NCBI GenBank assembly: GCA_003132025.1
Contig: PKWJ01000037.1
Coordinates: forward strand, 1-64,000
Source: Gammaproteobacteria bacterium
GTDB taxonomy: Bacteria; Pseudomonadota; Gammaproteobacteria; Steroidobacterales; Steroidobacteraceae
Direction: 5' to 3'
DNA length: 64,000 nucleotides
In this document: piece after piece, positions 15,913-31,939 of the stretch
Layout of the letters: each line of letters starts with the position of its first letter
Position numbering within the stretch: the stretch's first letter is position 1
Translations under genes and position numbers: made by a program
The notes under the pieces: generated by a model
What the model saw: the letters and a program-made list of their open reading frames with translations, nothing else
Told to the model about the DNA's origin: nothing
The model's database searches: none

Positions 15913-17523
15913 ATGCAAAACGGTGCGGGTTGCGGTTCACTCAGTCGGCGCCAGTTGCTGCGCATGATCGGAGTCACCGCAGGCAATGCCGCAATGTACC
16001 AGGCCATGAGCAGCCTGGGTTTTGCCGAGGACTCGCCCTATCGGGGTCCGATCGATCTGCAGGGCGCGCCGCGTAATACCTCGGTGCTGATCCTGGGAGC
16101 CGGCCTGGCCGGCATGACCGCCGCCTATGAACTGCGCAATGCCGGTTACCGGGTGCAGGTCCTGGAATTCAACGCCCGGCCCGGCGGGCGCAACTGGAGT
16201 CTGCGCGGCGGAGATACCTACACCGAACTCGGCGGGTTGACTCAGCACTGCCAGTTTGATCAGGACCTTTACATCAACCCCGGCCCGTGGCGCATTCCGT
16301 ATCACCACCGCGGCATACTCAACTACTGCAAGCGACTGGGTGTACCGCTGGAAGCATTCGTACAGATCAACTACAACGCTTATCTGCACAGCAGCCGCGC
16401 CTTCGGTGGCAAACCACAACGCTACCGCGAGATCAAAGCCGATTACCAGGGGCAGGTGGCGGAGCTGCTGGCCAAGACCACGCGACAGCAGGCGCTGGAT
16501 GCTTCGGTCAGCAGGGAAGACCAGGAAAAACTGCTGGCGTCGCTGCGCGACTGGGGTGCACTCGACAAGACCTATGCCTATGTCCCCGGCGACGCCAGCA
16601 GCGACCGACGCGGCTACAAGAAGGCGCCGGGCGGCGGCATGAGCGCCCGTCCGATCCCGTCCGAACCTATCGGCCTGAGCGACCTGCTCGACTCGAAGCT
16701 GTGGCAGGGCATTTACAGCGGCGATACTTTCGATCTGCAGACGCCCCTGTTTCAGCCGGTCGGCGGTATGGGCAGGATCGGTGACGCCCTCGGCCGTGAA
16801 CTCGGTCCGCTGATCCGCTACCACGCCCGCGTCACCGACATCCATCAGGATGCGCGGGGCATCAGCGTGCAGTACGAGGACATGCTGAGCCCTGGGTCGC
16901 AGCTCACCGCCAGCTCGGACTGGTGCCTGTGCACCATTCCGCTGTCGATCCTGGCGCAGATACCGATGAATGTCGGTCCGGCAATGGCCGCGGCCATCGC
17001 GGCCGTGCCTTATGCCTCGGCAGTCAAGGTCGGGCTGCAGTTCAAGCGTCGTTTCTGGGAGGAAGATGACGACATCTATGGGGGCATCACCTATACCGAT
17101 CTGCCCATTACCAACATCGGCTATCCGAGCAGCGGCTATCACAGCGCCGGCAAGGGTGTGCTGCTCGGGGCCTATATCTATGGCGTGGATGCAATGGAGT
17201 TCACTGCGATGGCGCCGCCCGAGCGGGTACAGAAAGCGGTCGATTACGGTAGCCAGATCCATCCGCAGTATCGCGAGGAATTCGACAACGGAGTCGCCGT
17301 CGCATGGCACCGTTCGCCGTTCGCCATGGGCTGCTACGGCATGTGGAACTCCGATACCCGCGCCAGGCACTACGACGATCTATGCCAGATCGATCAGCGT
17401 ATCGCCCTTGCGGGCGAGCACGCCTCCTACCTCCCCGGCTGGCAGGAGGGCGCGATTACCTCGGCGCTTGATGCCATCGAGCGGCTGCATCGACGCATCG
17501 TCGCGCAGGCCGGCAAGGCATGA
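15913..17523 (+). CDS. Tat-exported flavin monoamine oxidase family protein
   Basis: The 536-aa protein begins with a twin-arginine leader (LSRRQLLRMIG, residues ~10-20). It continues with an FAD-binding VLILGAGLAGMTAAYELRNAGY motif and GRPGGRNWSLRGGD-like sequence typical of MAO/polyamine oxidases. The C-terminal ALAGEHASYLPGWQEGAI is the second flavin contact. It should oxidise an amine in the periplasm. Its stop overlaps the start of a cytochrome c gene (ATGA), which suggests that electrons go to a cytochrome rather than to oxygen. Substrate unknown; polyamine or a product of the divergent ureohydrolase would fit. Confidence 0.87.
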   Translation: MQNGAGCGSLSRRQLLRMIGVTAGNAAMYQAMSSLGFAEDSPYRGPIDLQGAPRNTSVLILGAGLAGMTAAYELRNAGYRVQVLEFNARPGGRNWSLRGGDTYTELGGLTQHCQFDQDLYINPGPWRIPYHHRGILNYCKRLGVPLEAFVQINYNAYLHSSRAFGGKPQRYREIKADYQGQVAELLAKTTRQQALDASVSREDQEKLLASLRDWGALDKTYAYVPGDASSDRRGYKKAPGGGMSARPIPSEPIGLSDLLDSKLWQGIYSGDTFDLQTPLFQPVGGMGRIGDALGRELGPLIRYHARVTDIHQDARGISVQYEDMLSPGSQLTASSDWCLCTIPLSILAQIPMNVGPAMAAAIAAVPYASAVKVGLQFKRRFWEEDDDIYGGITYTDLPITNIGYPSSGYHSAGKGVLLGAYIYGVDAMEFTAMAPPERVQKAVDYGSQIHPQYREEFDNGVAVAWHRSPFAMGCYGMWNSDTRARHYDDLCQIDQRIALAGEHASYLPGWQEGAITSALDAIERLHRRIVAQAGKA

Positions 17524-17984
17524 GAGCGCTATTCGGTGGCTTGACGCTACGCCGGCTGGTTATCGCGCTGTTGGTAGCCGGAATTGTGGCCGCGGCTCAG
17601 GCCGATGATCCCTCGTTCGCCGTCATGGCCACACTGAGCAACGTCAGCGGCGAGGACATCTACAACCGCATCTGTCAGGGCTGCCACATGGCGCATGGCG
17701 AAGGCGCGATCGGCGCCGGCCGCTACCCGAAACTGGCTGATGATTCCACGCTGGCGTCCTGGCGCTATGCGGCACTCACCGTGCTCCAGGGCCGCAACAA
17801 TATGCCGGCCTTCAGTGCGCCGCCGCAGCTGGAGTGGGATAGCCCGACGCTGCATCTGAGCGATGCCCAGGTGGCCGACGTGGTCAACTACGTGCGCAGC
17901 CATTTCGGCAACAACTACAAGGAGCGCGTCACTGCCGACGACGTCGCGAAGCTGCCGCACCCTGCCGTGGGCGCTGCGCCTTAG
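17520..17984 (+). CDS. Periplasmic monohaem cytochrome c, partner of the amine oxidase
   Basis: The 154-aa protein has a signal peptide (LRRLVIALLVAGIVAAAQA), a single haem-binding CQGCH and a downstream NNMPAFSAP stretch that can provide the methionine ligand. It is a class I cytochrome c. The ATG overlaps the amine oxidase stop by 4 bases, so the pair is very likely co-translated. It is the obvious electron acceptor for that flavoprotein. Confidence 0.9.
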   Translation: MRALFGGLTLRRLVIALLVAGIVAAAQADDPSFAVMATLSNVSGEDIYNRICQGCHMAHGEGAIGAGRYPKLADDSTLASWRYAALTVLQGRNNMPAFSAPPQLEWDSPTLHLSDAQVADVVNYVRSHFGNNYKERVTADDVAKLPHPAVGAAP

Positions 17985-20268: not shown

Positions 20269-21675
20269 ATGGCTGTACTGATCAAGCGCCTCACCCTGCT
20301 CGAGGCCCTGGGGCTTTCGCTGGCTGTGGTCGCACCCACCGTCACGGCCGCCTTCAATATCACGCTGGTGGTTGGCGCCGCCGGTCCCGCCGCGCCGCTC
20401 GCATTCGTGATTGCCGCGGTGGCTACGGTGCTGATCGCGTTGTCGTTCATGGCGTTCACGCATCGCGTCGCGCACGCGGGTTCCGCTTACGCCTACATCA
20501 CGCACACCTTTGGCAGTCGGGCAGGGTTCGTGGCCGGCTGGGCGCTGCTGCTCACCTATCTGGGATTCGGCACCGGCTTCGCCGCGCTGGTCGGCAGCTT
20601 CACCAGCGCCGCGTTCAAGGATGTCGGCGTCAGCACCGGCAGCGTCGGCTGGCTGGCGATCGGCATCGTGGGGCTGGTAGTGGCCTGGTGGCTCGCGAAT
20701 CAGGACATGCGGCTCGCCGGCCGCGTAATGCTGCTTCTCGAGGCGCTGGCCATGGCCGCAATCGTTTACCTGTGCGTGGCGATCCTGCGCAAGGTGCACC
20801 CGGACAGCGAACGGCTGGCCGCGAGCTTTCGGCCGGCGCGCGCCTTCCATGGCTGGGTGGGCCTCGGCTTCGGGATGGTGTTCAGCATGCTCTCGTTCGC
20901 CGGCTTCGAAGGCGCGGCCACGCTCGGTGAGGAGACCGTCAACCCGCGGCGCGCGATTCCGGTGGCCCTGATCGGGGCGGTACTGCTGTGCGCAGTATTC
21001 TTCACCTTCGTCTCGTATTGCGAGGTGGTCGGATTCGGGCCGGATGGGATGCGCGAGCTCGCCAATTCCGACGCGCCGCTCGATGTACTGTCGCGCCGTT
21101 ACGTGTCTGGGCGGCTGTCGATCGCACTGAATCTGGCGGCGGCGACTACGTGTTTCTCGGGCGCCATCGGCGCGATCGCAGCCGGCGGCCGCGTGCTGTA
21201 CGCGCTCGGCCGCGTGGGACTGTGGCGCCGGCTTGCCGAAGTGCATCCGGTACACGGCACGCCCGCGCCGGCCATCACCGTCACCGCACTGCTGATCATC
21301 CTGCCTTTCCTGCTGTGGGCGCCGTTCGCCGGCGCCGGCAACTACTACAGCTACACCAGCGAAACCGGTGCGCTCTCGCTGCTGCTCATCTATATCGGCG
21401 TCGGTGGTGCGGAGGTCATCGAGGCCCGGCGCGAGGGCCGGTATCGGTGGGCCGCCACCTGCGCGCTCGGACCGCTGTTGCTGTTGTGGGTGCTCTATTG
21501 CAACGTCTACCCGGTACCCGACTACCCGAACAATCTGTGGCCGTACGTCACGCTGGCGTGGGCAGCTAGCGCACTGCTGATCATTCACTTTCGACCGGAG
21601 CTGGCCGCAGCGCCGTTACCGGAATACAGCCTGGCTGCCTCGGCACCGACCGGTGACACCCACCATCAGACGTAG
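20269..21675 (+). CDS. APC-superfamily amino acid/amine permease
   Basis: The 468-aa protein has about 12 membrane segments and APC features: LGLSLAVVAPTVTAAFN in the first helix, GSAYAYITHTFG and GFEGAATLGEETVNPRRAIP after helix 6. It imports an amino acid or amine by proton coupling. It follows the aminotransferase, and its 3' end overlaps the convergent glyoxalase gene by 10 bases. Confidence 0.9.
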   Translation: MAVLIKRLTLLEALGLSLAVVAPTVTAAFNITLVVGAAGPAAPLAFVIAAVATVLIALSFMAFTHRVAHAGSAYAYITHTFGSRAGFVAGWALLLTYLGFGTGFAALVGSFTSAAFKDVGVSTGSVGWLAIGIVGLVVAWWLANQDMRLAGRVMLLLEALAMAAIVYLCVAILRKVHPDSERLAASFRPARAFHGWVGLGFGMVFSMLSFAGFEGAATLGEETVNPRRAIPVALIGAVLLCAVFFTFVSYCEVVGFGPDGMRELANSDAPLDVLSRRYVSGRLSIALNLAAATTCFSGAIGAIAAGGRVLYALGRVGLWRRLAEVHPVHGTPAPAITVTALLIILPFLLWAPFAGAGNYYSYTSETGALSLLLIYIGVGGAEVIEARREGRYRWAATCALGPLLLLWVLYCNVYPVPDYPNNLWPYVTLAWAASALLIIHFRPELAAAPLPEYSLAASAPTGDTHHQT

Positions 21676-22058
21676 TGGCCGGCGCGCTCGAGTACCTCGA
21701 TCTTGTAGCCGTCGGGGTCGGTAACGAAATAGAAGCGCGCCGAACCATTAGGCGCGGCCAGCGATTTGATGTCGCCAGGCGCGTAGCCGAGGCGTAGCAG
21801 CAGATCGCGGTGCGCGCCAAGATCCTCGACGCAGAATGCCACATGGCCGTAGCCGGAGCCGTGCGTGTACGGCTCGCTCTGACTCTGGTTCCAGGTGAGT
21901 TCGATTTCGCAACCGCTATCTGCATCGCGCAGATACAGCAGCTTGAACGTCGGGAATTCTAGCCGGTGCGACTCCTGCAGGCCGAAGGCCTGCCGGTAGA
22001 ACGAAGCCGAACGCTCCAGATCGAGCACGCGGATCATCGAGTGAATGAGTTTCGCCAT
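21666..22058 (-). CDS. gloA: Glyoxalase I-type VOC protein (lactoylglutathione lyase)
   Basis: The 130-aa protein starts MAKLIHSMIRVLDLERSASFY and holds GYGHVAFCVEDL and VTDPDGYKIEVLER, the signature of GloA-type lactoylglutathione lyases (metal ligands His, Glu, His, Glu). It detoxifies methylglyoxal with glutathione in the cytoplasm. An AAGGAG site precedes the ATG at 22058; the longer ORF start at 22085 is unnecessary. It lies just downstream of the TTQ dehydrogenase cytochromes in the same direction, so it may be the tail of that operon and help cope with reactive aldehydes. Confidence 0.85.
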   Translation of the reverse strand: MAKLIHSMIRVLDLERSASFYRQAFGLQESHRLEFPTFKLLYLRDADSGCEIELTWNQSQSEPYTHGSGYGHVAFCVEDLGAHRDLLLRLGYAPGDIKSLAAPNGSARFYFVTDPDGYKIEVLERAGHYV

Positions 22059-22081
22059 GTTCGTCGCTCCTTGCGCCGATC

Positions 22082-22423
22082 TCATTGTACGGTGTCGAGC
22101 GACTCGATGTAGGCCGCGAGATTCGCGATGTCATCGTCGCTCAACGGCTTCGCGACCGCAGTCATGATGGCTGCGTAGGTCCCCTGGCGCCGGCCGTCGC
22201 GATATGCCTTGAGCGCGTTGATGACGTACGGACCGGACTGACCCGCGATCTTTGGATATTGCGGGATCACGGTCGAGCGCCCGTCCGAGCCGTGACAGGC
22301 AGCGCACTGAACGAATTTGTCACGCCCTTGCGCCACCGAGTCAGGCGCTGCGAGCGCACGCACCAGCAGCGCCGGCACTACCACGGCGATGCAAACGATG
22401 AATCCTCGGCCAACGGCGGGCAT
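22082..22423 (-). CDS. Small periplasmic cytochrome c (amine dehydrogenase operon)
   Basis: The 113-aa protein has a signal peptide (MPAVGRGFIVCIAVVVPALL), one CAACH haem site and the c553/c4-like sequence GSDGRSTVIPQYPKIAGQSGPYV. The ATG at 22423 follows AAGG. It lies 19 bases downstream of another cytochrome c gene and belongs to the TTQ amine dehydrogenase gene set, where it is a likely electron acceptor in place of the cupredoxin used in classical systems. Confidence 0.88.
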   Translation of the reverse strand: MPAVGRGFIVCIAVVVPALLVRALAAPDSVAQGRDKFVQCAACHGSDGRSTVIPQYPKIAGQSGPYVINALKAYRDGRRQGTYAAIMTAVAKPLSDDDIANLAAYIESLDTVQ

Positions 22424-22442
22424 CGGTGCACCTTGAGGCGAA

Positions 22443-22970
22443 TCAGTAGAGCACGATGTGCGGCAGGGCCAGCGTGTCCGCCGACGGGATCTGACCGGCG
22501 GCCAACAGCGCATCGACGATGCGTCGCCGGCTCGCGACGACATCGATGCGCGCCTGGCGCAGCTCTGCGACCTCGCTCGCCGTGTAGGGCTGGAAGTCCG
22601 CCGCTAGCTGCGCGCGGCTGTAGGTTGCCAGCAGCCAGTTGAGCACCGCGGCGATGTCAGCATCGGAGTTCGCGTTCAGGGCGACGTTAGGCACCTGTAC
22701 CAGGTAGCGGCGACCTTCCGGAATGCGCGTGAAATACCCGACTCGTCCGGCGAGCGTCGGAATCTCGGCTGCGGAGCTGCCAAACTCGCCGTGGCAGCCC
22801 TGGCAGTTGGTGGCATACAGCTGCGCCGTGCGCGGCATCGGCGCCAACTGCAGGCCCGAACGGCGAGTCTCGATGTCGGGTACATTGCTGCCGGACGCGG
22901 CAGGCGGGCTGCCGGCGCTGACGATCGAAGCTGCGAGTGCGAGCGCCAGCGCGGCCGCGAACTGTCGCAT
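22443..22970 (-). CDS. Periplasmic cytochrome c next to the TTQ small subunit
   Basis: The 175-aa protein has a signal peptide (MRQFAAALALALAASIVSA) and one CQGCH haem motif near residue 60. A long C-terminal part, VASRRRIVDALLAAGQ, is rich in Arg and Ala. It starts 8 bases after the small-subunit gene. Aromatic amine dehydrogenase clusters are known to carry a monohaem cytochrome here. It may take electrons from TTQ or help build the cofactor; with one haem it is not MauG. Confidence 0.85.
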   Translation of the reverse strand: MRQFAAALALALAASIVSAGSPPAASGSNVPDIETRRSGLQLAPMPRTAQLYATNCQGCHGEFGSSAAEIPTLAGRVGYFTRIPEGRRYLVQVPNVALNANSDADIAAVLNWLLATYSRAQLAADFQPYTASEVAELRQARIDVVASRRRIVDALLAAGQIPSADTLALPHIVLY

Positions 22971-22978
22971 GCGCGGCC

Positions 22979-23545
22979 CTATTCCGCGAGGCCGACCAGG
23001 CCGGCGCTGGAACAGTGGTAGACCATGCTCGAGGCACCGAAGCACCAGACGATATCGTTATTGACCTGCGGCCGGTAGGAAGGCATGTCGCCTTCCTGGC
23101 CCAGGCAGGCGCATCGCCCGCACGAGTCCTGGCCGCAGCAGTCGCGATACGCAATCAGATAGGTCCTGCCGTCATCCGGATTGATGCACGAGCCGATCCA
23201 CGAGGTCGGCGACGGCGAGGTGCCGGGCGGACAGGTGTGCGGTCCGCCGCCGCAGCAGGCGCACAGGTAGCCGTCGCTCGCGCAGTAGCGCCAGTAGTTG
23301 CAGCGCGTCGGATCGTTGGTCTGGGCATGATTGGCAAATTCGGAAGCGAACTTGCGCGCCGGCTTGGCGACTGGCCGCTCGCCGGCCTGTGCGCGGCGCG
23401 CCACCGGCAGCAGCGGCAGCGACGAGGCGGCCACGAGCCACAGCCCGCACTGCGACAGGAAGCCGCGGCGCGAAGTAAGTTGCGCCGCTCCGCGGCTCAA
23501 GCTCTCGATCAGGCCGTCGAAGCGGCCACTGCAGATCGGCTTCAT
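22979..23545 (-). CDS. TTQ amine dehydrogenase small (catalytic) subunit
   Basis: The 188-aa precursor has a twin-arginine leader (TSRRGFLSQCGLWL). It then has the cysteine-rich fold of methylamine/aromatic amine dehydrogenase beta chains: CNYWRYCASDGYLCACCGGG, CPPGT and RDCCGQDSCGRC. The two tryptophans that would crosslink to TTQ lie in TSWIGSC (about residue 116) and DIVWCFG (about 167). They are 51 residues apart, the same spacing as Trp57 and Trp108 of the Paracoccus enzyme. The two aspartates used in cofactor formation and catalysis appear conserved. The ATG overlaps the MauD stop (ATGA). Whether the amine is methylamine or an aromatic amine cannot be told from sequence alone. Confidence 0.92.
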   Translation of the reverse strand: MKPICSGRFDGLIESLSRGAAQLTSRRGFLSQCGLWLVAASSLPLLPVARRAQAGERPVAKPARKFASEFANHAQTNDPTRCNYWRYCASDGYLCACCGGGPHTCPPGTSPSPTSWIGSCINPDDGRTYLIAYRDCCGQDSCGRCACLGQEGDMPSYRPQVNNDIVWCFGASSMVYHCSSAGLVGLAE

Positions 23546-24168
23546 GTGTGACTGACCTCGTCCTGGTTGCGACTGGCGAGCCGCTGGGCCGCAAGGTACG
23601 CCTGGATGGTGCCGAAGCCGGTCTCCTCGGCGACGATCAGACTCTCGAGGTGTTCGCGACTGTTGACCAGGCCCTTGGCGCGGATGATCCCCTGCGCGTC
23701 GATCAATATGGCATACGGCAGCTTGCCAACCTGAAATGCGATGCCGACCTGGAGCGAATTGACGTACGGCAGGTGGCCGAGCCGAAACTCCTGAATCATC
23801 GCGCGCTGCTCGGCGGCCTCGCCGTCGCCAACCAGTACCACGTCCAGGCCCTCGGCGCCCGCAAGCGAGCGTGCGATCGGCAGCAGCTTCTTGCACACCG
23901 GGCATGATGGCGACACGAACAGCAGCAGCCGGCTGCGCGCCGCGGCCGCAGGTCCCCCGATCTCGACGCGATCTCCGGCGAGCGTGGCCACACTGATCGT
24001 CGGCGCGGGTTCGCCGACGGCCGGACCGTGATCGCTGGTCATGGCCCCCATCGGCGCGACACGCTCATGCAGCACACCGACCTGGCGGGCCAGCGCAAAC
24101 AGCAGCACCGCCAGCAACAGCGTGATCACCAGCTGGATCACAACGATGTAGGGCAACGCGTTCGCCAT
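23542..24168 (-). CDS. mauD: MauD-like thioredoxin-fold maturation protein
   Basis: The 208-aa protein has one N-terminal membrane helix (YIVVIQLVITLLLAVLLFAL) and a periplasmic thioredoxin-like domain with a CPVCKKLL redox motif near residue 92. MauD/AauD proteins are needed to form the many disulfides of the TTQ small subunit, which is encoded next. Order and overlap with the small subunit match mau/aau operons. Confidence 0.92.
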   Translation of the reverse strand: MANALPYIVVIQLVITLLLAVLLFALARQVGVLHERVAPMGAMTSDHGPAVGEPAPTISVATLAGDRVEIGGPAAAARSRLLLFVSPSCPVCKKLLPIARSLAGAEGLDVVLVGDGEAAEQRAMIQEFRLGHLPYVNSLQVGIAFQVGKLPYAILIDAQGIIRAKGLVNSREHLESLIVAEETGFGTIQAYLAAQRLASRNQDEVSHT

Positions 24169-24177
24169 GACCCTGAC

Positions 24178-24747
24178 CTAGAAACCGAGCCGCGCCCGAC
24201 CGGCGCGCAGGTTGTCATCGAAGCTGGGCGGCGCTAGCTGCAGGGCGATCTGCAGCACCGGGTAGAGAAATCCAAGCGTCACGACGAAGGCCAGTACGAG
24301 GCTGAGTTCCGCCGCGCTCAGCGCGCGTCCGTTCGTGGGCAGCAGCAGTACCAGGGCCAGCGCGGCGAGCACCAGGTTGCGGCCAACCATCCACGGCGCG
24401 ATGCCCTGGCGCCGTTGCGAACCAAAGCAGCCGCAGTCGATCGAGCGGCGGCCGCGGCCCAGGTTGATCGCAAGCGCACACGCATAGGCGAGCAGCAGCG
24501 CTGCGACAGCGAGTGCCCCCGCGACACGTGTGCGCTGCCACAGCAGTGCAGCCGCCGCCAGCGCCTCGGTCAGCGGCACCAGCAACGCCACTGGGCCTGC
24601 GAGCAGCTCGGGCAGGAGCCGGTAGTGGCGCACGATGGTCGGCCACTGCTCGCGCGCGCGCAGCTTGTGGAGAGCCGCGGCGCCGAACAGGGCCGCCAGC
24701 GCGAGCGCGAGCGTCAGCTGCGCCAGCGTATCGAGCATCTCACTCAC
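24178..24747 (-). CDS. mauE: MauE-like membrane maturation protein
   Basis: The 189-aa protein has about four to five membrane helices of the DoxX/MauE fold and a SIDCGCFGSQRRQG loop with a cysteine pair. MauE works with MauD in disulfide formation for the small subunit. It overlaps the 3' end of the large-subunit gene by 8 bases and precedes mauD, the standard BED order. Confidence 0.9.
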   Translation of the reverse strand: MSEMLDTLAQLTLALALAALFGAAALHKLRAREQWPTIVRHYRLLPELLAGPVALLVPLTEALAAAALLWQRTRVAGALAVAALLLAYACALAINLGRGRRSIDCGCFGSQRRQGIAPWMVGRNLVLAALALVLLLPTNGRALSAAELSLVLAFVVTLGFLYPVLQIALQLAPPSFDDNLRAGRARLGF

Positions 24748-25927
24748 CCCACACGGTCAACAGTTGCGGCGTGAAGCCAAGGGGTTTGGTCCTATAGAGC
24801 GGTTTACCGGTCGCGAGCCTGAAGCCGTAGATCCGGTAGCTGTCCGCGATCACGTACAGCAGCGCATCGGCGTCCTGCGACACCGCGATCGACTGTGCCG
24901 GCTCGGGCAGCTTCACGCGCTGGAGGCGCGTGCCGGTGGTGGCATCGAATTCCCACACCTCGGTGCCAGAATTCTTGTGGGTCCAGTCGCGCCCCCGGTG
25001 CATCAGTACGTACAGACGGCGCTTGGGGGAGTGGAAGTGGCTGATCTGCCAGCCGCCGGGTCGCCACCCGGCGCTGCGCTCCGCATCGCTGGTCAGCGAC
25101 CAGCTCGCGCCAATCACCGCCTGCTCGCCGGCAAGATTCACCGGAATGACCCTGCCATGGTAGGTCACCAGATAGAGCATCTGGTGATGCTTGTCCCAGC
25201 CGGAGTGCTCGAACGCGGGATCGTTCTTGGCATCGAAGACGTTCGCGGTGCGCTTGACGGTGGCGTTGGCCGACTCATCGAAGCTCACGGTCGCAATCGC
25301 GCCGTCGGCGCACAGCGAGGAGAATCGCGCTGGCCCCTGCGCGAAGATCAGACCACAGCCCGGGATGCCGATCGTGCCGACCGCCTTGCGCTCCTTGAGG
25401 TCGGTGACCGTCACGGCCGTCTGCGGCGCAAGGTTGTAGGTGAGCCCGTAGTGCCCATCCGGAGTCACATCAAAGTTGTACTTCTTGGAAACGATCAGCA
25501 GCCGCCCCGCCGGCAGCGGGATGTCCTCACTGACCTGCAGGGTGCGCGCGTCGCGCACCACGATGTAGTCGCTGCGCTTGCCGCGGGTGTGCTTCTCCCA
25601 GTAGGAATCCACGGCATAGAGCTCGCTGCCGTCGGGAGACACCGCGAAGTTCGGCCAATAGGCCTGGTTGAACATGCCCTCGACCTGGCCGCTGGTACCG
25701 TCCAGGACGTAGGTTCTGGCCGCCTCGGCCGCCGGGAACGCGACATCCAGGACATATAGCCGCCGCAGATCCGTTGGTGCCAGTGTCGCGGTGACGTGCG
25801 ACTCGGCGAGCTGCAGCTTCGCGTCCGCGGTGAGATCATCCGAATCGCCGGCAAGCGCGGGGCTCGCGAGCACCAGTGCACTCGCGGCGACGCCCGCGGC
25901 CAAGATGCCCCCGCTCCACCCCCTCAT
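24740..25927 (-). CDS. TTQ amine dehydrogenase large subunit
   Basis: The 395-aa protein has a signal peptide (ending ASPALAG). It is a predicted seven-bladed propeller of the methylamine/aromatic amine dehydrogenase heavy-chain family, shown by RLYVLDVAFPAAEAARTYVLDG, YWPNFAVSPDGSELYAVDSYW and RLYVLMHRGRDWTHKNSGTEVW. It binds the TTQ small subunit in the periplasm as an alpha2beta2 enzyme that turns primary amines into aldehydes and ammonia. It is the first gene of the BEDA set, 43 bases downstream of a TonB-dependent receptor gene. Confidence 0.92.
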   Translation of the reverse strand: MRGWSGGILAAGVAASALVLASPALAGDSDDLTADAKLQLAESHVTATLAPTDLRRLYVLDVAFPAAEAARTYVLDGTSGQVEGMFNQAYWPNFAVSPDGSELYAVDSYWEKHTRGKRSDYIVVRDARTLQVSEDIPLPAGRLLIVSKKYNFDVTPDGHYGLTYNLAPQTAVTVTDLKERKAVGTIGIPGCGLIFAQGPARFSSLCADGAIATVSFDESANATVKRTANVFDAKNDPAFEHSGWDKHHQMLYLVTYHGRVIPVNLAGEQAVIGASWSLTSDAERSAGWRPGGWQISHFHSPKRRLYVLMHRGRDWTHKNSGTEVWEFDATTGTRLQRVKLPEPAQSIAVSQDADALLYVIADSYRIYGFRLATGKPLYRTKPLGFTPQLLTVWGE

Positions 25928-25970: not shown

Positions 25971-28406
25971 TCAGAACTTCACGTTGAGCTGCATGCCGAC
26001 AGTGCGCGGCTGATTGGTCGAGTAGCGCACGGTCTGCGGAATGTTGAATTGGAAGCTGGTGTTGTTGGCGGAAATCAGCGCCACCTCGTTGGTGAAATTG
26101 GTAACAAAGGCGACCACCGACCATGGTCCGTGATCGAGGATCAGGTGCGCGTTCGCAATGTTGTACGACGGCAGATGGTAGCCGAAGAAGTAAGCGACAT
26201 CGGTCGACGGACCGACGAAGGAATCGTCGATGCGCGCCGTGAGCTGGTAGTTGGGAACGATTGGCGTCGTGTAAGCCAGCGATGCGCTCGCGGTATCCTT
26301 CGGTACGTTCAGGATCGGCACCGTGCAGCTGCCGGTCACCGGACACGGCCGCGTGACACCATCCGGGGCAAATGCCACCTGCGACAGGTAAGCCTGGAAC
26401 GACGCATTAGGCGCGGTGATCTTCGAGTTGGTGTAGGCACCGCTCACCGACATGGTCCAGGCCTCGGCCAGCTTGGCGTTGATCTCGAGCTCCGGGCCGA
26501 AGGCACGGCCGTCGCCGGCGTTGTTGTAGTACTGATAGCCGCAGGGCAGCGTGATGACCTGCTGCACACCGAGCCAGCGGATGTAGTAGACGTCGCCGTT
26601 GATCGTCAGTCGATTGTCCAGCAGTTTCGCCTTTTCGCCAACCTCGTAGTTCCAGGCCTCGTCGGGGCTGAAGGCGAGCACACCGGGCTGGCAGTTGATC
26701 GGCGGGCCGCTCGGCAGGATCTGGTTCGCCCCGCCGGGCCGGAAGCCCTTGGAAATCGTCGTGTAGAGGTTCAGGTCGTGCGTGGGTTCATACGACAGGT
26801 CCACTCGCGGGTTGAAGCCGCTGTCTGAGGCGCGCGTGACTTGCACCGGCGTGACCGCCTGATTGGGGTACGGGGCATCCACGCCCCAGGAAAACTCGTG
26901 CTGTTCGCTCTTGTACGTGTACCAGCGCACGCCGGCGGACAGCTTCCAGTGATCGTCGAACTTGTACGAGCCGTCCGCGAACAGCGCCGTCTGCCGCACC
27001 CAGTAAGGGTTCCAGGAGGTGAAGTACGAGCCGTCGGGAACGCTCGGTGTCGCGTTCAGCGGGCTGTTGCTGACCTCGTTCCAGATTGATTTCAATTGAC
27101 TATAGAACACTCCCCCGACCCAGTGCAGGCCGCCGACATCGTGCGAGGTCAGGCGCACCTCCTGGCTGAACTGGTGCGAAGGGTCGACCTCGGAGTACAG
27201 CACCGGCGCCAGCGGCGAGTTGCCCCCATTCGAATAATACAGCGACTCGGAAGCATCCTCGGCCTGGTGATTGAGCCGGGTGAAATACGATGTCGCGCTG
27301 GTCAGGTCGGCGAAGCCGACGTTGGCGTTGATCGTCAGGCCGTAGATCTGGACGTTATCATTCAGGAATTCGCGCAGCGGAAACACCTCGTAGTGCGCGT
27401 CGTAGATCTTGCCTGGCGACGCACTGGTGGGGCTCGAATCCAGCAGGTCGTAGCCTCCCATCGACAGGCGCTGATCGTACGCCATGGCGGTGATCGACAG
27501 ATCCTCGTTGGGCTGAAACAGCACCGTCACCCGGCCGTTGCGCATGTGCTCGACGTTGGCCCGCGGGATCTCGCTCTCCACCGGCGCGTTGTATACCGGC
27601 GTCTGATTCGGAGTCAGCAGCGTGGTCGCAGCGTTCGGCACGTTGACGGCAATCAGATTGATCCAGCCGCTGCGATCGAGGTCACCGCCGACGATGCGCA
27701 CCGCGATCTTGTCGCCCAGCGGCAGGTTGAGCATCAGATTCGCCCCACCGTTGGCGCCGCCGCCGTCGGTATACGAGCCGGTCACCTGCGCCGAGCCCTC
27801 GAACTGGTTGAGTTTCGGCTGCGCCGTGACGACCTTGACCGTACCGCCCATTGAACCCGAGCCATAGAGTGTGCCCTGCGGGCCGCGCAGCACCTCGACG
27901 CGATCGACGTCGTACAGGCTCGGGTCGATGACGACCTTGCCGGACTGAGACAGTGCGGGCGGTGACAATGGGATCTCATCGAGGTAGAAGCCGACCGTCG
28001 GCGCTGCGCCGCCGTTCGAGGCCAGACCGCGGGCTTCGTATTCGGTGAGGCCGGGGCCGGCCGAGCGCATCGACAGCCCAGGAACGTCGCGCGCGAGCTC
28101 CTCGACGTTCACGATGCCCTGCTCCTCGAGCTGGGTGGAACTCACCGCCGAAATGCTGATCGGCGTGTCCTGAATGGTCGACTTGACCTTCTCGGCGGTG
28201 ACGACGATCTCGGTGAGCCCGCCCTCGCTGGTAGCAGCGGCGCTCGTGTCCGCCTGCGCGCCAGGTACGAGATAGAACGCCGCTAGCAATCCCGATGCAC
28301 AGACGATGGCGGCCCGCGCCGCGGCACGCGGCGGCCAATGTTTGTAAGGACCAGCGCAACCCGTACACGCATCCACTGCCGTCGAATAACGGACTGTCGT
28401 TCTCAT
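25971..28406 (-). CDS. TonB-dependent outer-membrane receptor
   Basis: The 811-aa protein has an N-terminal leader, a TonB-box-like EIVVTAEKVKSTIQDTPIS, a plug domain with VDRVEVLRGPQGTLYGSGSMGG, and a beta-barrel ending in an aromatic residue (GMQLNVKF). It takes up a large or scarce ligand across the outer membrane. Because the amine dehydrogenase operon follows after only 43 bases, co-transcription is likely. The cargo could be an iron or copper chelate or an organic substrate; sequence does not say. Confidence 0.92.
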   Translation of the reverse strand: MRTTVRYSTAVDACTGCAGPYKHWPPRAAARAAIVCASGLLAAFYLVPGAQADTSAAATSEGGLTEIVVTAEKVKSTIQDTPISISAVSSTQLEEQGIVNVEELARDVPGLSMRSAGPGLTEYEARGLASNGGAAPTVGFYLDEIPLSPPALSQSGKVVIDPSLYDVDRVEVLRGPQGTLYGSGSMGGTVKVVTAQPKLNQFEGSAQVTGSYTDGGGANGGANLMLNLPLGDKIAVRIVGGDLDRSGWINLIAVNVPNAATTLLTPNQTPVYNAPVESEIPRANVEHMRNGRVTVLFQPNEDLSITAMAYDQRLSMGGYDLLDSSPTSASPGKIYDAHYEVFPLREFLNDNVQIYGLTINANVGFADLTSATSYFTRLNHQAEDASESLYYSNGGNSPLAPVLYSEVDPSHQFSQEVRLTSHDVGGLHWVGGVFYSQLKSIWNEVSNSPLNATPSVPDGSYFTSWNPYWVRQTALFADGSYKFDDHWKLSAGVRWYTYKSEQHEFSWGVDAPYPNQAVTPVQVTRASDSGFNPRVDLSYEPTHDLNLYTTISKGFRPGGANQILPSGPPINCQPGVLAFSPDEAWNYEVGEKAKLLDNRLTINGDVYYIRWLGVQQVITLPCGYQYYNNAGDGRAFGPELEINAKLAEAWTMSVSGAYTNSKITAPNASFQAYLSQVAFAPDGVTRPCPVTGSCTVPILNVPKDTASASLAYTTPIVPNYQLTARIDDSFVGPSTDVAYFFGYHLPSYNIANAHLILDHGPWSVVAFVTNFTNEVALISANNTSFQFNIPQTVRYSTNQPRTVGMQLNVKF

Positions 28407-28784: not shown

Positions 28785-29180
28785 CTACCGGAAGCGCTCA
28801 TCGATCGGCAGGTCGAGTGCGAATGCGTGCCGGTTGGTCTCGTTCGCAAGACCGACTATAGCCACCAGCTCTGCGTGCTGTTGCGGCGTCATGCCCTTGT
28901 GTCTGGCGGCAAAGCCGTGCGAGGCGATGCAATAGCGGCAGCCATTGGTGATGCTCACGGCCATGTAGATCAGCTCCTTCGTCAGCGGATCGAGCGCACC
29001 GGCCCCCATGACCTCCTTGGAATTGGCCCACATGCGCCGCAGGGTGGGCGGATGGTGCGCCAGTATCTTCCAGTAGTTGTTGACCCAATCGGTGTTGCGG
29101 GTAGCCATGATGTCGTCATACACCGCGCGCACCGCCGGCGAGGCGCTGACATATTCAATCGGGGTCGCGTTCGCGCTCAT
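28785..29180 (-). CDS. Carboxymuconolactone decarboxylase/AhpD-like protein
   Basis: The 131-aa protein belongs to the CMD/AhpD fold: LDPLTKELIYMAVSITNGCRYCIASH holds the CxxC-x2-H motif of peroxidase-type members. The ATG at 29180 has AGAGG upstream and lies 2 bases after the stop of the preceding hydrolase gene; the TTG start at 29186 in the track is less likely. It is the last gene of a four-gene operon with GS-like, FGase-like and isochorismatase-like enzymes, so it may protect against or process a product of that pathway. Confidence 0.87.
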   Translation of the reverse strand: MSANATPIEYVSASPAVRAVYDDIMATRNTDWVNNYWKILAHHPPTLRRMWANSKEVMGAGALDPLTKELIYMAVSITNGCRYCIASHGFAARHKGMTPQQHAELVAIVGLANETNRHAFALDLPIDERFR

Positions 29181-29182
29181 GG

Positions 29183-29845
29183 TCAACCTCTTTTACCCGC
29201 CAGGCGTTCGATCTCTTCCAGCAGTTCGCGTGTGCTGCGTTGCCTGCAATAGCCGCGATTATTGCGCAGCGACCATTCATGTCGCTCGGCCGACAGCGTG
29301 ACGCAGGCATCGGTCGGCAGCGTCACAAGATAGCCAAGGTCGCAGGCGTCACGCACCGTCGAATCCACGCATTGATCGGTCAGGCATCCGGCCACGATCA
29401 GATAGCGCGTGCCAAGATTACGCAGCACATAATCGATGTTGGTGGAGATGAACACCGATGATGAGGTCTTGGGAAAAACGATCTCATCCTCACCGGGGGT
29501 CAGTTCACTCACCATGTTCGCGTCCGGCGAACCCTTGGGCACGTTGAAGCCGGTGATCTTGTAATCCAGTGAGCGGTCACGTCCGTCTGCCGTCAGACTC
29601 TCGATCACGGTGTAGACGACTTCTATCCCGGCGCGGCGACAGGACTGCTGTAACAGCACCATATTGGGCAGCGCGCTGTGCTTCAAGGTGCGAAAGAAAT
29701 AGCCGTAGCGCTGCTCCTTCTCGGCCGCGCCGAGATGAGCATATTCACCGCCATCCCGGCTGCAGTTGTAGGTCTGCACATCGACCAACAGCAACGCGGC
29801 ACGCGCCGGGTCAATCTCGATCTCGCGACTCAGCGGCTGGCTCAC
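29183..29845 (-). CDS. Isochorismatase-family cysteine hydrolase
   Basis: The 220-aa protein shows LLLVDVQTYNC (Asp), FPKTSSSVF (Lys) and AGCLTDQCVDSTVRDA (Cys), the triad of the isochorismatase/amidohydrolase family. The GTG at 29845 overlaps the stop of the FGase-like gene as GTGA; the ORF-track start upstream is not needed. Its operon partners suggest it hydrolyses an amide made or released by the GS-like and FGase-like enzymes. It differs from the paralogue at 17995 in most of its length. Confidence 0.88.
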   Translation of the reverse strand: MSQPLSREIEIDPARAALLLVDVQTYNCSRDGGEYAHLGAAEKEQRYGYFFRTLKHSALPNMVLLQQSCRRAGIEVVYTVIESLTADGRDRSLDYKITGFNVPKGSPDANMVSELTPGEDEIVFPKTSSSVFISTNIDYVLRNLGTRYLIVAGCLTDQCVDSTVRDACDLGYLVTLPTDACVTLSAERHEWSLRNNRGYCRQRSTRELLEEIERLAGKRG

Positions 29846-30693
29846 GCGGATACCCCCATGAAGGCGCGCTCGGCCGAGCGTAGCGCCGCGGCTATACGCC
29901 CTGCCCACTCGGACTGACCGGCATCATCGAGCAGCAGGTCCTGGCGTATTTCGATCTCGACATGCGGCAGCCCGCGCGCCTCGCCATGGCGCGGAATGGT
30001 GTAGTCGGTCGCGTCGCTGACGAAATAGGGCTCGTTGTCCGCGATATGCAGATTGCCCTCACGGCGCAGCATGTCGAGCACCAGACCGGCGAAGCGCCGG
30101 TCACGGTTGTAGAGCACCGCGGCGTGCATGTCGCGTCGCACGCCACGGAAAATGTTGGTCATGCTGTGCTGGGCTACGAGAATGGTGCGGCGATTCGCGG
30201 CCAGCCGCTGATCCAGCAGCGCGCGTATATGGGCGTGGTAGGGATCGAATATCTCGCGCCGGCGAGCCACGATCTCCTGCTCGCTTAAGGCCACATTGCC
30301 GGGGATCGCGATCGATTCGCCGATCGTCGGGATCGATGAGGCCACGCCAGGATCGCGATTGCAGTCGATCACCAGGCGCGAGTAGTTCTGCGCCACCAGT
30401 GCGGCATCCAGCTCGGCGGCGACCCGCCGGGCGACCGCCAGCGCGCCGATGTCCCAGGCGATATGCCGCTGCAGTTCCGGATCCGGCAGCCCGAGATCGC
30501 CCAGGCGCGCCGGAATACGCCGGCTCGCGTGGTCGACTACGATGACGAAATTGGATTGTCCCTGACGACCGGACTCGAGTACGGCCGGGGGCTCATCGGC
30601 GCCGAGCAGCTGGTAGTCCGCGCCGCGGGCAGCATCACCGCCGGCAACTCCGCCTCCGATTGCATTCACATCACGATCAATAGACTTCGGCAT
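29842..30693 (-). CDS. N-formylglutamate amidohydrolase-like protein
   Basis: The 283-aa protein matches the FGase family: FVIVVDHASRRIP, IAWDIGALAVARRVAAEL, RLVIDCNRDP and a later VEIEIRQDLL. The reference reaction cleaves N-formyl-L-glutamate to formate and glutamate, the last step of one histidine route; no histidine genes are nearby. The ATG at 30693 overlaps the upstream GS-like gene by 17 bases. With a glutamate-amide-forming enzyme beside it, the true substrate may be another N-acyl glutamate or amino acid; that is inference. Confidence 0.86.
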   Translation of the reverse strand: MPKSIDRDVNAIGGGVAGGDAARGADYQLLGADEPPAVLESGRQGQSNFVIVVDHASRRIPARLGDLGLPDPELQRHIAWDIGALAVARRVAAELDAALVAQNYSRLVIDCNRDPGVASSIPTIGESIAIPGNVALSEQEIVARRREIFDPYHAHIRALLDQRLAANRRTILVAQHSMTNIFRGVRRDMHAAVLYNRDRRFAGLVLDMLRREGNLHIADNEPYFVSDATDYTIPRHGEARGLPHVEIEIRQDLLLDDAGQSEWAGRIAAALRSAERAFMGVSA

Positions 30694-31939
30694 AGCGGCG
30701 ACAGATCTCCGTCTCACTCAGATTGTCGAGCCCCTGGATCTCGGCGCGTTTGAACTGCAGGTAGGCAGCGAGCAGATCCGCGCCCAGCCACTCAACCGCG
30801 GCCTCACTGGCTTCGAGGCATTCCAACGCCGCGCCCAGGCTGTCCGGCAGCGCGGGTGCTGCTGTCGGCTCGATTTGCCGCTGATGACGTACGCCGTCGA
30901 GGCCAGCCTGCACCAGTATGGCGAGCGTCAGATAGGGACTGGCGGTGGCATCGGCGACGCGATACTCGATATTGAATTGCCGCGCGCGCTGCAAGGGATC
31001 ATCACCGGTCACTGGGCAGATGCGCAGCGCAGCGCCGCGGTCCAGCGGGGCTACATCGGCTCGGGTGGGAGCCCATCGATTCGGGCGCAGGCGGTAATAG
31101 GATGCCAGCGACGGCGCGGTCAGCGCGCACAGCGCCGGCATGTGATGCGCGATCCCGGCGATGAACTGATTTCCCAGCTGCGACAACTGCCATTGCCGCT
31201 GCGCGTCGTACAGCACCGGCTGGTCGCTACGATCGCGAAAACTCCAGTGAATATGAGTGCCGTTGCCGGTGCCGTTCGGCTCGGGTATCGGCGCCAGGCT
31301 GACGCGGTGCCCGAAGCGAAACGCTACCGCCTGCGCAAGCTCGCGAGTGATCACCGCGTCATCCGCGGCACGCAACCCAATCGCAGGCGCCGTCGTGACC
31401 TCGAACTGGCGCGGTGCGTATTCGCACAGGAACGAATCCGGAATCACTCCTGCCTGGCGCATTGCCGCCAGCAGCGCTTCACCGAACAATCCCTGGCGAC
31501 GATAACCATCGAGCTCGTAGGGCTGCGGCGGATGAGCGGCGACGCCGCTGTACGTGAACTCCTGTTCAAAGGTCGCGAGCAGTCGCAGTCCGGTGTCCTG
31601 CTCCAGCCGATGTAGTGCACGGCGCAGTACCTGCCTTGGACAGAAGTCCCACGGCGCCCCGTCCAGCGTGACGATGTCGCCTAGGTAGAAATATTCGGTC
31701 GCACTGCCGTCGAACGGTACGAACACGCGTGTGGACGCGTCCGGAATCAGAAACACCTCGCCGCTGGTGCCGAACGTCGTCATCTGGATGTTGCCGAAGG
31801 CGGACAGGAAAATATTAGTCGGGGCCAGACCGACTCCGCGCCGCAGCCGAGCCGACAGATCCGCCGCAGGGAAGCTCTTGCCGCGGAAATGACCGGACAG
31901 GTCGCTGGTTCCGACAAAGACTATCTGTTCGCGCTCCAT
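30677..31939 (-). CDS. Glutamine synthetase-like ligase
   Basis: The 420-aa protein has the GS catalytic barrel: TFEQEFTY (metal Glu), EVTTAP, NGTGNGTHIHWSF (ammonia/glutamate site) and RPNRWAPTRADVAP. The N-terminus is shorter than in housekeeping GS. It resembles the GlnA-like group that includes gamma-glutamylpolyamine and gamma-glutamylmethylamide synthetases. No adenylylation-tyrosine motif of GlnA is recognised. It leads an operon with FGase-like, isochorismatase-like and CMD-like genes, in a window full of amine catabolism, so gamma-glutamylation of an amine is the likely reaction. Confidence 0.83.
   Translation of the reverse strand: MEREQIVFVGTSDLSGHFRGKSFPAADLSARLRRGVGLAPTNIFLSAFGNIQMTTFGTSGEVFLIPDASTRVFVPFDGSATEYFYLGDIVTLDGAPWDFCPRQVLRRALHRLEQDTGLRLLATFEQEFTYSGVAAHPPQPYELDGYRRQGLFGEALLAAMRQAGVIPDSFLCEYAPRQFEVTTAPAIGLRAADDAVITRELAQAVAFRFGHRVSLAPIPEPNGTGNGTHIHWSFRDRSDQPVLYDAQRQWQLSQLGNQFIAGIAHHMPALCALTAPSLASYYRLRPNRWAPTRADVAPLDRGAALRICPVTGDDPLQRARQFNIEYRVADATASPYLTLAILVQAGLDGVRHQRQIEPTAAPALPDSLGAALECLEASEAAVEWLGADLLAAYLQFKRAEIQGLDNLSETEICRRYAEVY

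Follow-up and report, generated by a model that had tools for sequence, protein, structure and literature searches.

The window analysed here comprises 64,000 nucleotides (positions 1 to 64,000 of contig PKWJ01000037.1, from a gammaproteobacterium of the Steroidobacteraceae) and carries on its minus strand an operon for an amine dehydrogenase of the tryptophan tryptophylquinone (TTQ) type, together with a mono-haem cytochrome c of a family named A in this study. The genes are ordered, along the minus strand, TonB-dependent receptor, large subunit, MauE, MauD, small subunit, cytochrome A, second cytochrome and VOC protein, and adjoining genes either overlap by a few bases or are separated by gaps within 45 bases.

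Gene content of the operon

The four core genes named in an earlier sequence-only reading of the region were confirmed by profile searches. The large subunit (24740-25927; 395 amino acids, beta-propeller, signal peptide) scored 217 bits to PF06433; MauE (24178-24747), a membrane protein for small-subunit maturation whose gene has a GTG start and overlaps the large-subunit gene, scored 96 bits to PF07291; MauD (23542-24168), a thioredoxin-like accessory protein with a CPVCK motif, scored 226 bits to TIGR02661 (cut-off 188.6); and the small subunit (22979-23545; 188 amino acids) scored 169.5 bits to PF02975 and 209.3 bits to TIGR02659 (cut-off 196.85). The latter score exceeds the NCBIfam equivalog cut-off for the amicyanin-linked methylamine dehydrogenase (MADH), so that automatic annotation would name the protein methylamine dehydrogenase (amicyanin), although neither amicyanin nor MauG is encoded nearby. 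The large subunit, with 225 bits to TIGR02658, remained far below the MADH-type cut-off of 454; its best phmmer matches in the PDB were MADH heavy chains (1mg2 and 3c75, E~1e-53), with aromatic amine dehydrogenase (AADH) at E~1e-47.

The TTQ tryptophans of the small subunit, W116 and W167 counted on the translation, correspond to W57 and W108 of MADH and stand 51 residues apart, as the sequence-only reading had stated. By MADH numbering the pair lies in the motifs SW-IGSC (W116) and VWC (W167), which ruled out the tryptophan of CNYW as a partner (a pair 82 residues apart). The alignment also showed the equivalents of MADH D32 and D76 and the conserved cysteine positions.

Each of the two cytochromes contains exactly one CxxCH. 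The first (22443-22970) has a signal peptide, the haem motif CQGCH and no axial methionine, a valine standing in its VPN/VPG segment, and it scored 132 bits to the hidden Markov model (HMM) of family A. The second (22082-22423) is an ordinary class I cytochrome c (PF00034, 44 bits) with its methionine in AAIMTAV; with 19-20 bits to the HMMs of families A and B it belongs to neither, and it is plausibly a candidate electron acceptor. Judged from the signal peptides, 22970 and 22423 are the likely starts of the two genes, rather than 23045 and 22543. The earlier proposal that two single-haem cytochromes take the places of MauG, MauF and amicyanin thus held as to haem number; the two are not equivalent, however, as the first alone belongs to a Met-less, TTQ-associated family.

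Absence of MauG from this genome and from most TTQ loci

In agreement with that reading, which had reported MauG, MauF and amicyanin missing at the locus, none of MauG, MauF, MauJ and amicyanin was found among all open reading frames of the window. The same reading held that it would be refuted if mauG and mauF were encoded together at another place in the genome. Of this pair mauG was sought genome-wide, and the assembly (4.2 Mb, 61 contigs) gave no match to PF03150 (CCP_MauG) or TIGR03791, with a small gap left by its completeness of 97%; the search for mauF, mauJ and amicyanin covered the window. The genome has a second TTQ locus (L003:9985-15580, equal to G000:C36:150484-156079; small-subunit match at G000:C36:150905-151234), with the large subunit, the small subunit and its own family A cytochrome on one strand, mauE-mauD divergent, and no MauG. 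It adjoins DAO-like, aminotransferase and aldehyde dehydrogenase genes, and two N bases stand at its small-subunit/cytochrome boundary.

A TTQ small subunit was detected in 46 of 196 genomes in the survey of the order, in 13 of 399 genomes of a phylum sample (including one match below the family cut-off and one 23-residue fragment) and in 13 of 385 genomes of a second class (one being a sub-cut-off, pseudogene-like match). The 190 loci with both a large and a small subunit were read: family A was linked to 167, mauF/mauJ/mauG to eight, a Rhodocyclales-type arrangement to six, and none of these to nine, which were lone large and small subunit pairs or lay at contig ends. Linkage to mauF/mauJ was taken as the criterion for MauG because the curated TIGR03791 cut-off is not diagnostic, the mauF/mauJ-linked MauG of genome G877 reaching 251 bits against 444. 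A search with the MauG model found some CCP/MauG-type protein in 43 of 67 TTQ-positive genomes and no homologue at all in the other 24, among them the single-contig genomes G253, G385 and G602; if TTQ forms in these, another route is needed. The MauG-less state is therefore the rule among TTQ loci and not special to the window. The earlier suggestion that a different factor completes TTQ remains plausible, with the cytochrome it had singled out (22443) as the candidate, but the absence of MauG that gave rise to it holds for most sampled TTQ loci.

Family A is a cytochrome family that has lost its axial methionine loop

The open reading frames downstream of TTQ small subunits sorted into two families, A and B, and where both are present the order is nearly always small subunit, B, A. 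Family B (26 sequences initially and 97 in the later set) has the axial methionine in 97/97 sequences. Family A (n=172) has CxxCH in 100% of its members, and outside this motif Met, His, Lys and Cys reach at most 38% in any column. The haem histidine and a conserved asparagine stand 50 residues apart in A and 68 apart in B. Cytochrome c552 of Thermus thermophilus (1c52) was the best sequence and fold match of family A, with which it shares a C-terminal F.P[FY]TA.EV..[LR] segment; the alignment gap coincides with the Met-bearing loop of c552, and family A differs further in being dedicated to TTQ genes. As read from these alignments, the comparison shows family A to be a c552-type fold minus the loop of about 18 residues that carries the axial methionine. 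The AlphaFold model of family A had a mean pLDDT (predicted local distance difference test) of 89. Cytochrome A of the window has the features of the family, namely one CxxCH, VPG/VPN replacing the Met loop, and linkage to a TTQ small subunit. The missing loop suggests that the distal side of the haem is probably open to O2 or H2O2.

Family A shares with the MauG/dihaem CCP family (PF03150, TIGR03791) a c-type haem and, as proposed below, the task of TTQ completion. It differs in having one haem and not two and in size and architecture, and no sequence kinship was detectable past the haem motif. In loci L078, L079, L080 (8224-9855) and L094, all from one family of the order, family A and a phosphotriesterase-family domain (PF02126, 212 bits) form an in-frame fusion, and a Sphaerotilus plasmid carries a broken TTQ locus in which a small-subunit remnant stands with families B and A (L153:7001-8013).

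Family A co-occurs with TTQ genes

Genomes were searched with a family A profile (A1; hits at E<=1e-10), the best candidates of each genome being scored; loci of the order sample supplied part of the profile, and most TTQ-positive genomes of the second class lay outside it. The matches were exactly the 46 TTQ-positive genomes among 196 of the order and exactly the 12 among 385 of the second class. In the two surveys pooled (581 genomes), 58 had both TTQ and family A, 523 had neither, and there were no exceptions. True matches began at about 117 bits, the next match scoring 49.6. Under random pairing the probabilities would be ~1e-45 (order) and 1e-22 (second class), values far too small given the relatedness of the genomes. 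Loci L053 and L136 are not exceptions, family A being present elsewhere in both genomes. Family A is thus obligately linked to TTQ genes.

In two genomes family A was separated from the structural genes: G088, a single contig, has a mauE-mauD-A operon (L185) 1.2 Mb from the large and small subunit genes, and in G102 family A lies on a different contig. These unlinked cases count against pure hitch-hiking within the operon and, together with the perfect co-occurrence, rule out family A as a chance neighbour.

Family A is absent from the mauFJG loci

Family A occurred in 0/8 of the loci with the order mauF-L-E-D-S-J-G (L and S, large and small subunit; E and D, mauE and mauD). Amicyanin is present in two of the eight; the other six lack it, indicating that the absence of family A tracks MauG and ruling out amicyanin as its cause. 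Five genomes of one genus (G877, G959-G962) have two TTQ loci apiece, one of the order mauF-L-E-D-S-J-G that lacks A and one of the order L-E-D-S-A that lacks mauG. A further variant was seen in five Rhodocyclales genomes (L299, L301, L371, L372, L373), in which the TTQ operon has B and no canonical A; a divergent mono-haem cytochrome lacking the Met is encoded 1-9 kb away, followed by two MauG-like dihaem genes, the pair being fused into one frame of ~870-900 amino acids in L372 and L373. A sixth locus, L287, was too fragmented to judge. An aldehyde dehydrogenase gene stands just upstream in L299 and L301.

Trees of the large and small subunits placed the mauFJG loci in one clade (100/100) nested among the A-type loci. 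The window and L052 fell inside a 100/100 clade that holds MADH, and the A-type members there grouped together (92/86); the midpoint root of these trees serves for drawing only. The window enzyme is a sister of MADH. A phylogeny against MADH and AADH, put forward as a check in the sequence-only reading, thus went against an AADH placement. The wide spread of family A over the tree speaks for a later arrival of MauG, the direction of change being inferred.

The mau cluster of Paracoccus denitrificans (L145) shares with the window the large-MauE-MauD-small order, the spacing of the TTQ tryptophans and membership of the 100/100 clade, whereas the window lacks mauF, mauJ, mauG and amicyanin and has a family A cytochrome instead. 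The aau cluster of Pseudomonas aeruginosa RW109 (L152) also lacks mauFJG and has large-MauE-MauD-small followed by mono-haem cytochromes, but in L152 these are B and then A, while the window has A and then an unrelated Met cytochrome. The gene order of the window is therefore that of the aau type, but its subunits do not group with AADH, falling in the MADH clade (100/100) with MADH as best PDB hits. The aau cluster of Alcaligenes faecalis was reportedly found by Chistoserdov in 2001 to lack mauFGCJLMN and to contain a mono-haem cytochrome, orf-2, and with P. denitrificans as host Hothi in 2005 is said to have produced active AADH recombinantly from aauBEDA together with orf-2. The MauG-less layout is thus already known; what is new here is the definition of the family, its lack of a Met loop, its exception-free co-occurrence with TTQ genes and its pattern of exclusion with MauG, and no description of family A was found in the literature searched.

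A proposed role for family A in TTQ completion

The route to finished TTQ in the absence of MauG has been an open question since the MauG-less AADH was shown to carry TTQ. The loss of the Met loop, the obligate link to TTQ genes and the exclusion with MauG together point to family A as helping to complete TTQ in MauG's place, the window enzyme being a periplasmic TTQ dehydrogenase sister to MADH; the probability of this reading is put at roughly 0.55. MauE and MauD would, as their families suggest, fold the disulfide-rich small subunit, after which the family A cytochrome (in the window, 22443-22970, the proposed maturation factor) would help to oxidise and cross-link both tryptophans. Its haem, if open as predicted, may react with O2 or H2O2, the oxidised haem then drawing electrons from the precursor tryptophans. 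A different carrier would take up the electrons of amine oxidation, in the window plausibly the second cytochrome (22423-22082); direct transfer from the window enzyme to cytochrome c is possible.

Several points weigh against this role. The argument for it is comparative throughout, and a missing methionine is by itself no proof of an open haem. A mono-haem protein cannot use the bis-Fe(IV) mechanism of MauG, and its chemistry would therefore differ from MauG's. Operon hitch-hiking could by itself produce much of the co-occurrence pattern, and the Rhodocyclales relative matches family A with 28-40 bits only. The exclusion with MauG amounts to two or three events, the mauFJG clade arising once on the tree and the Rhodocyclales change having occurred once or twice. 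In addition, family A genes equal TTQ small subunits in number in the order survey (58 and 58), a tighter ratio than a shareable maturase needs; G801, with two TTQ loci and one A, departs from it. Finally, 48 of the 80 loci read first had A as their sole CxxCH protein immediately downstream, which fits an electron acceptor as well.

This last possibility forms the main alternative, in which family A would serve MauG-less TTQ dehydrogenases as a dedicated electron acceptor, in the way amicyanin serves MADH, with TTQ completed autocatalytically or by some other factor. That nearly every locus has A beside the small subunit, and that the gene numbers are equal, agrees with such a role as well. 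The loss of the axial Met loop would be odd for a pure electron carrier, however, loci often have a Met-bearing cytochrome too (one of family B, or in the window the second one), A sits with mauE-mauD and not with the structural genes in G088, and neither A nor amicyanin occurs in six of the eight mauFJG loci. On balance this explanation appears unlikely, though it is the strongest of the rivals. A considerably less probable alternative is that no dedicated catalyst is involved: the dehydrogenase subunits would form TTQ with MauE/MauD and O2, or a general periplasmic peroxidase would do so, and family A would serve some other purpose, for instance in haem or redox quality control. In MADH the first hydroxylation of the tryptophan is indeed thought to be autocatalytic (PMC7876137), and the CCP/MauG-type proteins of the 43 genomes could supply a peroxidase, but the 24 genomes without one include complete genomes, and the strict retention of A would need another explanation. 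That the locus is an ordinary aau operon, family A being orf-2 of A. faecalis, is very improbable, for despite the same gene order and the two cytochromes likewise found in the AADH-like aauA locus of P. aeruginosa, the window enzyme groups with MADH and not with AADH (100/100).

If family A does complete TTQ, a small mono-haem protein performs work thought to require a dihaem bis-Fe(IV) enzyme. MauG works by long-range electron transfer (PMC7876137), and in methanethiol oxidase a MauG homologue adjoins a putative TTQ enzyme (PMC5739008). The surveys give one candidate gene for MauG-less completion, retained alongside TTQ genes throughout both of them, and natural controls exist in the genomes that combine a MauG-type with an A-type locus and in the one where A stands beside mauE-mauD. 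It can be suggested only tentatively, at somewhat less than even odds, that family A represents a novel type of catalyst for TTQ maturation, a Met-loop-deleted mono-haem c-type cytochrome, and the more widespread system, which MauG/MauF/MauJ replaced in the MADH lineage, the nearest MauG-less sisters of which include the window enzyme.

Neighbouring genes

The TonB-dependent receptor (25971-28406, minus strand; PF00593/PF07715) lies 43 nucleotides upstream of the large subunit and is probably on the same transcript. At the other end, the gene of the VOC/glyoxalase-type protein (21666-22085, minus strand; PF00903, 55 bits) overlaps the stop of the second cytochrome and is probably the last of the operon. 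Upstream on the same strand (28785-31939) are carboxymuconolactone-decarboxylase-like, isochorismatase, N-formylglutamate amidohydrolase and glutamine-synthetase-like genes, a set that suggests a gamma-glutamyl amine catabolism tied to the TTQ operon. At 15913-17984, a flavin adenine dinucleotide (FAD) amine oxidase with a twin-arginine-like signal is directly followed by a mono-haem cytochrome c, an arrangement resembling that of a periplasmic flavin amine dehydrogenase and a dedicated acceptor.

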